Positions 30,481 to 57,302 of a stretch of DNA of 64,000 bases are shown here, piece by piece. The first letter of the stretch is position 1; every line of letters begins with the position of its first letter. The notes under the pieces are model-generated. The model saw only the letters and a list, made by a program, of their open reading frames with translations, had not been told where the DNA came from and searched no databases. The position numbers were made by a program, and so were the translations under genes. Source of the DNA: Coriobacteriia bacterium (GTDB taxonomy: Bacteria; Actinomycetota; Coriobacteriia; Coriobacteriales; Atopobiaceae); NCBI GenBank assembly GCA_030530145.1, contig JAUMVN010000009.1, forward strand, positions 1 through 64,000, given 5' to 3'.

Positions 30481-30612
30481 GGTGCAGTTTTTGTGAACAT
30501 AGGCCCCCTCGACCAGCGCGAAGTCGCCCGGTTCAGGGGTTTTTAAGTCCCCATGGGTAGGATAGCCCGGAATTGGAAATCAGCTGTCTGAAAATCCTTG
30601 AGGAGGAGCCCC

Positions 30613-31284
30613 ATGAACGTGCTGGTTGTTGAGGACGAGAGGAACCTCGCCGACGCCATCGTGAAGATCCTGGAGGACGAGGGCTACAACGCCGAGGCCA
30701 CCTACGACGGCAAGGCCGGCCTCACCTGCGCGAAGAGCGGGCTGTACGACGCCATCGTCCTCGACGTGATGCTTCCCGGCATGAGCGGCTACGACGTCGT
30801 GCACAACATGCGTCGCGAGGAGGTCTCGACCCCGGTGCTCATGCTCACCGCGAAGACCTCCACGGCCGACAAGGTCGCCGGCCTCGACGCCGGGGCCGAC
30901 GACTACATGACGAAGCCCTTCGAGGCGGCCGAGCTCCTGGCTCGCCTGCGAGCCCTCACCCGCCGCCGCGGCGACGTGCTCATCGACGAGATCAAGTTCG
31001 CCGACGTCGTCCTCGACCTGAACACCCACGACCTCAGGTGCGGCGAGAAGTCCGTGCACCTTTCCGGCAAGGAGTTCGAGGTCATGAGCATCCTCATGGG
31101 CTCGAACTCGCGCGTCGTCTCCAAGCAGGACCTCCTCACCCGCGTGTGGGGCACCGACGGCGAGGCGTCCGAGAACTCCGTCGAGGCCTACGTGAGCTTC
31201 CTGCGCAAGAAGCTCAGCCACGTCGGCTCGAAGGTCCAGGTGACGACCCTGCGCATGCTCGGCTACCGCCTCGAGGTCCTCTAG
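30613..31284 (+). CDS. OmpR/PhoB-family response regulator
   Basis: A 223-residue transcription factor. The receiver domain (1-118) has acidic pocket residues in VVEDE, phospho-acceptor D51 (IVLDVMLPG), T79 and K101 (MTKPF). The C-terminal winged-helix DNA-binding domain (about 125-223) shows LSGKEFEVMSILM and SENSVEAYVSFLRKKL. ATG 30613 follows AGGAGGAG. Its sensor kinase is the next gene. The signal and target genes cannot be inferred. It is divergent from rpsP. Confidence 0.94.
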   Translation: MNVLVVEDERNLADAIVKILEDEGYNAEATYDGKAGLTCAKSGLYDAIVLDVMLPGMSGYDVVHNMRREEVSTPVLMLTAKTSTADKVAGLDAGADDYMTKPFEAAELLARLRALTRRRGDVLIDEIKFADVVLDLNTHDLRCGEKSVHLSGKEFEVMSILMGSNSRVVSKQDLLTRVWGTDGEASENSVEAYVSFLRKKLSHVGSKVQVTTLRMLGYRLEVL

Positions 31285-31307
31285 CCCCGGCACGGTAAGC
31301 GAAAGAG

Positions 31308-31443
31308 CCCTCCCGCCGCGCCGGGCCCCGGTTTTGCCTCAGGGCGAGTTCCGCATGAGCCGAACGCGACTTAATGTCGCGTTCGTGCGAACAGGACTGC
31401 CCGAGTCCATGAGGCAATTCCGGGGCCCGGCGCGGCGGGAGGG
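31308..31443 (+). repeat. 136-bp structured inverted-repeat element between response regulator and kinase genes
   Basis: 24 bases at 31308-31331 are exactly complementary to 31420-31443. After a 2x2 mismatch the pairing resumes for 8 bp (31334-31341 with 31410-31417). Inside are a 10-bp hairpin (31361-31370 with 31376-31385, loop TTAAT) and a 5-bp hairpin (31394-31398 with 31404-31408) whose loop GCCCG could pair with GGGC at 31342-31345. The 181-bp gap has no gene and no U-tract, so this is not a simple terminator. AGCGAAAG occurs on both sides (31298-31305 and 31451-31458). Confidence 0.7.
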
Positions 31444-31465
31444 CGGACGGAGCGAAAGGCCGCAC

Positions 31466-32701
31466 ATGCTTGACAAGCTCAAACGGGAGTTCACGCTCAT
31501 AGCGGTGGCCCTCTCGGGCGCTGTGCTTCTCATCGCCCTCGCCATGACGTTCTACTCCAACTGGTCGACGCAGACCGGCATAACGAGCACCCTGCTCCAG
31601 CGCAGCCTCGAGAGGGGCTACGCCGAGAGCCCGCAGATGGGCTCCAAGGACCGCGAGGGCACCGTCGGCGCCGACTCGATGCTCACGATCACGGTGGACG
31701 TGACGGGCGGCGGCGTGATGCTGAGCGGGTCGGACTCCCCCGTCTCGGTCGACGAGGACGCGCTGGGCGCGATCATCGAGGAGGCCGTCGAGTCCAGCTC
31801 CTCCGCGGGCTACGACTGGGACTATCACCTGGCCTGGGCCACCAAGCGCACGAGCTACGGCTTCAAGGTCGCCATCTGCGACACGTACTCGCGCGACAAG
31901 TTCCTTGTCAAGCAGGGCGTCTCGAGCGCGGCCATCCTCGCGGTCGCCCTCGTGGCGCTCTTCGCCCTCGCCCGAGGCCTCGCCGCTTGGGCGGTCAAGC
32001 CCGTCGAGGAGGCGTGGGACGCGCAGCGGCGCTTCGTCTCGGACGCCTCCCACGAGCTCAAGACCCCGCTGGCCGTCATCCTCGCGAACGTGCAGATCCT
32101 GCAGAGGTCGAAGACCCTGGGCGAGGAGGACCGGCGCTGGGTCGACCGGACCGCCGACGAGGCGGGCCACATGAAGGGCCTCGTCGAGGACCTTCTCACC
32201 CTGGCGCGCGCCGACGAGGCGAAGGCGGGCTCGGTCGGGGCGACGGGCCCCTTGGTCGACCTCGACCTCTCGGAGGTGGTCGAGGAGGCCGCGCTCGAGT
32301 TCGACGCCGTCGCCTTCGAGCGCGGGTGCGCCATAGAGTGCTCCGTCGAGCCCGGCCTCACGGTCAAGGGCGACAAGGCCCAGCTCGCGCGCGTGGTCAA
32401 CACGCTGCTGGACAACGCGACCAAGTACGCCCCGGCGCAGAGCGCGGTCACGGTGACGGCGCGGCGCGAGGGCAAGAAGTGCGCCGTCCTCGTCAACAAC
32501 GGCGGCGACCCCATCGACCCCGAGGACCTGGGGCATCTCTTCGACCGCTTCTACCGCACCGACGAGGCGCGCGAGCGCCAGGGGCGCGGGGGGTTCGGGC
32601 TCGGCCTCGCCATCGCGAAGAGCATCGTCGAGGCGCACGGGGGCAAGATCTGGGCCGAGAGCACGGCGGAGGCCGGGACCACCTTCCACGTGACCCTATA
32701 A
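31466..32701 (+). CDS. Sensor histidine kinase
   Basis: A 411-residue membrane kinase, partner of the preceding response regulator. Membrane helices lie at about 9-30 and 153-175, with an extracytoplasmic sensor of roughly 120 residues between. A short linker leads to the HisKA box SDASHELKTPLAV (H196). The ATPase domain has the N box NTLLDNATKYAP, then GFGLGLAIAKSIVEAHGG. ATG 31466 was chosen because the membrane helix follows at once; longer in-frame starts run into the inverted-repeat element. GAAAGG lies upstream. dinB begins 7 bp after its stop. Confidence 0.93.
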   Translation: MLDKLKREFTLIAVALSGAVLLIALAMTFYSNWSTQTGITSTLLQRSLERGYAESPQMGSKDREGTVGADSMLTITVDVTGGGVMLSGSDSPVSVDEDALGAIIEEAVESSSSAGYDWDYHLAWATKRTSYGFKVAICDTYSRDKFLVKQGVSSAAILAVALVALFALARGLAAWAVKPVEEAWDAQRRFVSDASHELKTPLAVILANVQILQRSKTLGEEDRRWVDRTADEAGHMKGLVEDLLTLARADEAKAGSVGATGPLVDLDLSEVVEEAALEFDAVAFERGCAIECSVEPGLTVKGDKAQLARVVNTLLDNATKYAPAQSAVTVTARREGKKCAVLVNNGGDPIDPEDLGHLFDRFYRTDEARERQGRGGFGLGLAIAKSIVEAHGGKIWAESTAEAGTTFHVTL

Positions 32702-33990: not shown

Positions 33991-34041
33991 CCCCTACGAG
34001 AACGGCGCCCCGCACTGTGCGGGGCGCCGTTCTCGTAGGGG
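33991..34041. terminator. Large palindromic bidirectional terminator between dinB and rsfS
   Basis: 25-base arms (33991-34015 with 34017-34041) are exact complements around a single base; the arm begins CCCCTACGAGAACGGCGCCC. It sits between convergent genes, where a shared terminator is expected, although no U-tract follows on either strand. The stem is longer than intrinsic terminators usually have. Confidence 0.65.
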
Positions 34042-55947: not shown

Positions 55948-55954
55948 ATTTCGA

Positions 55955-55993
55955 AGTTCGGAAGGCTTCCCAGGTTTGGAAGCCTTCCGAACT
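55955..55993 (+). repeat. Palindromic repeat A at the left edge of the NERD cassette
   Basis: 16-base arms AGTTCGGAAGGCTTCC (55955-55970) and its exact complement (55978-55993) around a 7-nt centre. 36 of 39 positions are identical, in the same orientation, to repeat C at 57264-57302. There is no U-tract, so it is not a terminator. The roughly 290 bp from here to the NERD gene contain a possible promoter and no gene. Confidence 0.85.
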
Positions 55994-57177: not shown

Positions 57178-57198
57178 GAGTTCGGAAGGCTTCCAAAC
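57178..57198 (+). repeat. Repeat B, half-element after the NERD gene
   Basis: 21 bases beginning GAGTTCGGAAGGCTTCC are the exact reverse complement of 55974-55994 in repeat A. Repeat B therefore forms a perfect 21-bp inverted pair with A around the NERD gene. Confidence 0.8.
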
Positions 57199-57263
57199 TC
57201 GCGGCGCTTCTTAGCAGCAAGAAACGGAAGTCCTTTACCTGCAAATATACGAATCGCAACCGA

Positions 57264-57302
57264 TTTTCGGAAGGCTTCCCAAGTTTGGAAGCCTTCCGAA
57301 CT
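57264..57302 (+). repeat. Palindromic repeat C at the right edge of the NERD cassette
   Basis: 14-base arms TTCGGAAGGCTTCC (57266-57279) and its complement (57287-57300). It is a direct copy of repeat A with three substitutions over 39 positions. From here to the next gene (57303-57413) the G+C-rich host composition resumes, and I see no clear promoter. Confidence 0.85.

Follow-up and report, generated by a model that had tools for sequence, protein, structure and literature searches.

A probable palindromic repeat family with a shared core and locus-private arms in Coriobacteriales, with a copy between a response regulator and its histidine kinase

A long palindrome separates a response regulator gene from its sensor histidine kinase gene in the 64,000-nt window, the whole stretch of Coriobacteriia bacterium DNA that was analysed, and we consider it fairly likely to be a copy of a dispersed extragenic family of REP/MITE-like DNA palindromes of Coriobacteriales, whose roughly 53-nt core, an imperfect hairpin, is constant and sits between long, almost perfect inverted arms private to each locus. 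What points to this reading is the combination of many copies with a shared core and private arms, a core inversion, deletions, a near-empty site, and the lack of any orientation preference toward genes. Counting against it, the arms are unlike those of ordinary REPs and MITEs in that they are not common to the copies, and we identified no transposase or other trans-acting factor for the family. The palindrome may fold on single-stranded DNA during replication, where the polymerase would switch template between the arms, keeping them perfect and occasionally flipping the core, while a putative trans-acting factor that recognises the core may disperse or maintain the family. More tentatively, and with distinctly less confidence, we suggest a new class of element in which the core alone is inherited between sites, fresh insertions pick up or quickly rewrite long, perfect palindromic arms of their own, and a factor conserved throughout the order reads the folded core on single-stranded DNA.

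The response regulator (Response_reg and Trans_reg_C domains; 30598..31284, plus strand) starts at 30598 (TTG) or 30613 (ATG) and ends with a TAG at 31282-31284, and the kinase (HisKA and HATPase_c; 31466..32701, plus strand) starts at ATG 31466. Between them, folding and an arm search placed a perfect 25-bp outer stem at 31307..31331 and 31420..31444 (plus strand), one base pair longer than the 24 bp given in an earlier sequence-only reading, whose 8-bp extension was likewise recovered at 31334..31341 and 31410..31417, beyond a TT/TT mismatch. Perfect arms reached only 11-15 bp in 20 first-order Markov shuffles of the window, and the element folded at a minimum free energy of -119 kcal/mol, where shuffled sequences gave -67 +/- 4.5 (z -11.4). 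Where that reading had drawn a multi-branched junction with two further hairpins, the minimum free energy and centroid folds both gave a single unbranched rod with internal loops and bulges, and the supposed GGGC/GCCC contact of loop and strand proved to be a plain nested stem (31342-31345 with 31399-31402) beside a 7-nt bulge. The conserved 53-nt core occupies 31347..31399 and contains a hypervariable, co-varying central hairpin at 31362..31384, GAACGCGAC-TTAAT-GTCGCGTTC, as seen in an alignment of 39 cores.

A hairpin this strong close to gene 3' ends, in a family rarely placed between divergent genes, could be a terminator, possibly a bidirectional one, and we regard this as extremely unlikely: the stem is followed by GGACGGAGCG, and by TCTTTCGCTTACC on the other strand, neither of which is a T-tract, several other copies adjoin a separate intrinsic terminator, and the window copy lies inside the response regulator-kinase operon. 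Elsewhere in the window, a perfect hairpin of 25 bp, closed by a loop of 1 nt, at 33991-34041 (CCCCTACGAGAACGGCGCCCCGCAC...), between dinB-like and rsfS-like genes, is probably a bidirectional terminator. At one other locus (L081, 989-1042), an ordinary-looking terminator beside a copy narrowly exceeded the threshold for Rfam RF02838 (Enterococcus sRNA Ref55), which we take as a probable false match of a terminator-like sequence.

The genome-wide search for copies that the sequence-only reading had proposed recovered the core at 14 other places, in both orientations, giving 15 copies in this genome, as expected of a multi-copy extragenic imperfect palindrome of the REP type. Long inverted arms enclose every copy examined and their sequences are unrelated between copies; the left outer arm of the window copy (31307-31331) had no genomic match other than its own reverse complement. 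The contrast between core and arms is clearest in three copies of which one (L002) has the window's core and another (L003) differs from it at one position, with different arms in all three. We compared arms among copy pairs whose cores agreed at 90% or more of positions (mean 96%). Identity was 59% in the inner 8 bp, where composition predicts 28%, and 37% in the following 12 bp, where it predicts 31%, so the innermost arm is partly shared and the outer arm is near random. The conserved stem of REPs is therefore not found here, since the core is conserved and the outer arms are not, nor are the terminal inverted repeats that copies of a MITE have in common. In the core's orientation, the left boundary tends to read A|GG (A in 43/70 copies, G in 56/70), with no corresponding motif on the right.

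Copies also occur in opposite-oriented pairs, with two per short stretch at L051, L061, L088, L102, L120, L135, L142 and, in this genome, L006/L007; in several of them the two copies are about 200 bases apart and their location is conserved among Collinsella strains. Near copies at L070 and L133 lies a separate perfect palindrome, AAAATGCGTCATTTAGGGTCAGACCCTAAATGACGCATTTT, apparently of another repeat family.

The element belongs to an order-wide repeat family of Coriobacteriales previously undescribed in the open-access literature, in which we found no paper with the family or its core sequence. It matched 97/249 sampled Coriobacteriales genomes and 19/396 sampled genomes of the phylum, all 19 of them Coriobacteriales, with no match in the sampled genomes outside that order. 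Run against the genome collection, a degenerate core pattern matched at least 111 stretches, and the matches listed were all from Coriobacteriia, among them the genera Collinsella, Olsenella, Atopobium, Thermophilibacter and Tractidigestivibacter. Copies from genomes of family f2 carry the same core, again with private arms, and the core is nearly constant across families f1, f2 and f10. Phage and viral collections, including IMG/VR, held no match, and the single match in the plasmid collection was a 900-kb Collinsella replicon. At L069, L078, L086, L100, L107, L116 and L121, contigs or stretches terminate at most a few bases from the core, and some contigs, such as NZ_JADNOH, stop inside it; contigs ending in the core suggest that these hairpins probably break short-read assemblies.

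The copy in the window is probably a lineage-specific insertion, acquired on the branch leading to this genome, because relatives carry the same gene pair without the element: the spacer is element-free in G001, G004, G006, G007, G009, G012 and others, and is about 20-50 nt long in most relatives. The same 8-nt sequence, AGCGAAAG, stands on both sides of the element as had been reported, not flush with it, at 31298..31305 and 31451..31458 (plus strand); without the element and one of the two AGCGAAAG, the spacer would shrink to about 31 nt, similar to that of the relatives. These observations allow for a decayed MITE, with the arms as its terminal inverted repeats and AGCGAAAG as a possible 8-bp target duplication made by a DDE transposase, and one further copy (L126) is likewise flanked by an 8-nt direct repeat (CAAGTTAA). 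We consider this very unlikely, as each copy has its own, unrelated terminal repeats, the AGCGAAAG on the right shares bases with the likely ribosome-binding site of the kinase (GAAAGG, upstream of ATG 31466) and could be coincidence, and over 71 copies the longest flanking direct repeats averaged 4.18 nt against 3.97 in shuffled sequence, no signal of a general target duplication. The earlier suggestion of a MITE-like insertion comes close, in that there are many genomic copies and the element is absent from relatives with the same pair. That reading had staked its case on compensatory changes in relatives and on the element either being kept in close relatives or recurring in the genome; the outcome is mixed, with absence from relatives on one side and other genomic copies and compensatory changes on the other.

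Inserted into the short spacer, the element would place a very stable hairpin in the mRNA, with about 22 nt between it and the response regulator stop upstream, and about 22 nt between it and the kinase start downstream. REPs in intercistronic positions are known to protect upstream mRNA or to reduce downstream expression. By analogy, the hairpin may protect or stabilise the response regulator mRNA or lower expression of the kinase, and an effect in cis on the kinase mRNA is possible. A dedicated RNA junction that sets regulator:kinase stoichiometry, as first envisaged, is opposed by the occurrence of the family beside many unrelated genes in either orientation, the lack of an Rfam match, the rod fold, and compensatory changes that mostly lack wobble intermediates.

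Other orthologous sites vary in occupancy and arrangement. One site is filled at L081, L097 and L151 and near-empty at L144, L109 and L076, which have neither core nor arms; either state may be ancestral. Two loci (L095 and L216) look like hairpin deletions in which part of the arms was left behind. At a further site (L122 versus L190) the arms are the same and the core between them is inverted. Such inversion is rare, with one inverted site against 658 same-orientation comparisons, a count that does not suit a phase-variable invertible element, which would be expected to invert frequently through a site-specific recombinase. In Collinsella, nearly every tested site was filled in all 13 genomes, including in searches for empty sites with joined flanks. 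With each species represented by a single genome in the collections, very recent insertions are hard to see. Because Collinsella sites are mostly filled in all close genomes, the copies there are old, and this near-full occupancy suggests low current mobility and leaves room for function at some sites.

Neighbouring genes could be called for 47 copies, using a simple codon model rather than curated annotation and ignoring phylogeny: both genes ran along the core in 14 and against it in 16, 15 copies lay between convergent genes, and 2 lay between divergent ones. Fixed orientation toward genes is thus absent (14 versus 16), and the copies are depleted between divergent genes (2/47). An apparent left/right asymmetry in gene distance (26/36, p 0.011) was dropped because a single paired locus supplied several of the convergent cases and the start-codon calls were crude. 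An annotated Collinsella copy sits 212 nt upstream of groES, and at L102, L088 and L080 copies lie in 5' leaders directly upstream of start codons that read, from sequence alone, as those of valyl-tRNA synthetase-like and homoserine-kinase-like genes.

Co-variation in the element is strong. In the alignment of 39 cores (A1), 95.4% of cells pair, 94 cells are altered on both sides and few are wobbles, and the covariation score of 0.363 against 0.137 for shuffled alignments was reached in 0/500 shuffles. Between orthologous copies, entire blocks of sequence differ in the two arms, with pairing retained. Such compensatory change is a trait of structured RNA, and template switching yields the same pattern. 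Wobble pairs made up 0.9% of arm pairs in a strict set (G.U 20 versus A.C 14) and 2.5% in a larger, looser set (F-strand G.U 66 versus A.C 39, p 0.011), in both of which orthologous copies are non-independent, compared with 3.5% in intrinsic terminators at the same loci (G.U 40 versus A.C 11). Neither the G.U/A.C ratio (p 0.067-0.088) nor the wobble rate of the looser set (p 0.085) differed significantly between arms and terminators, and transcription direction had no effect on wobble type.

Template switching has been found to homogenise arms and invert spacers (PMC8604942), and to create and maintain stems (PMC8794818). Because scarce wobbles, multi-base paired changes and spacer inversion are its products, we attribute the co-variation mainly to a process acting on DNA. 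Given the F-strand excess of G.U in the larger set, a weaker constraint may also act on the RNA, and RNA-level selection on one strand is possible.

A structured regulatory RNA, either a cis element or a multi-copy small RNA selected for its fold, with copies spread beside many genes, would explain the strong co-variation, the near-constancy of the core across f1, f2 and f10, the G.U excess over A.C on the F strand of the larger arm set, and the conserved positions across Collinsella species. We nevertheless judge it unlikely, since the copies have no orientation preference toward genes, wobble intermediates are scarce, one orthologous core is inverted, and one variant class has swapped a tandem G-A loop for Watson-Crick pairs. 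We also found no promoter-like conserved signal ahead of the left boundary, and no Rfam covariance model matched the element, either in the window region (E up to 10) or at six other loci (gathering thresholds).

A mover of the RAYT type is one candidate: a Y1 (HUH) transposase carrying a REP as single-stranded DNA would suit an extragenic imperfect hairpin repeat with a one-sided 5' boundary (A|GG), and Y1_Tnp was present in 75/97 element-bearing genomes against 68/152 other genomes of the order (p 4e-7, not corrected for kinship). We hold this to be decidedly unlikely. The only Y1_Tnp gene found in this genome is of RAYT type and bracketed by a different repeat, so a cognate gene flanked by the element itself was not found; no GTAG/GGAG-type tetranucleotide was found at the 5' base of 70 copies; and 22 element-bearing genomes, including the single-contig G082, G075 and G100, had no Y1_Tnp match. 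Genomes without Y1_Tnp still hold many candidate copies, and on this ground RAYT was rejected as the mover. The RAYT-like Y1 transposase gene, at L181 (G000:C52:19877-20209) and near an assembly gap of Ns, is bracketed by its own repeat, GTCCCCAAAGCTCTCAAATGAGAG. The window also carries a second, conventional REP/BIME-like family, GTTCGGAAGGCTTCCAAACTTGGAAGCCTTCCGAAC, at 57179-57302 and 55951-55993, present at tens of genomic places (89 match rows, both strands), with conserved stems unlike the element studied here.

If the DNA-palindrome reading is true, intergenic regions and operons throughout an order of gut bacteria are reshaped by a palindromic repeat family that had not been described. 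It is also a point of caution that a hairpin's perfect compensatory variation, which commonly counts as proof of a functional RNA, may here stem largely from DNA template switching, and with hundreds of copies in dozens of species the mechanism would be testable on a natural data set.

Among known systems, the Collinsella-1 RNA motif (RF01700, PMC2864571), a candidate structured element, takes its name from the same bacterial group, and it matched neither the window region (E up to 10) nor six other loci (gathering thresholds). REP/BIME elements with RAYT are likewise short, imperfect extragenic palindromes that number in the tens, commonly lie close to gene 3' ends and sometimes form inverted pairs; the present element differs in its long, locus-private outer stem, its lack of a GTAG-type motif, a resident Y1 gene flanked by another repeat, and its confinement to Coriobacteriales in the samples searched. 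The MITE-like repeats ERIC, Correia/NEMIS and RUP are also non-coding, hairpin-forming intergenic sequences of about 100-160 bp that are present or absent between related strains. Terminal repeats are common to all copies of these, usually with target duplications, whereas only the centre is shared in Coriobacteriales. Quasipalindrome template-switch hotspots (PMC7202029, PMC8604942, PMC8794818) resemble the family in arm homogenisation, spacer inversion and paired multi-base changes; there the mutation process operates at any inverted repeat, whereas here it would be acting on the copies of one dispersed family whose core is constant.
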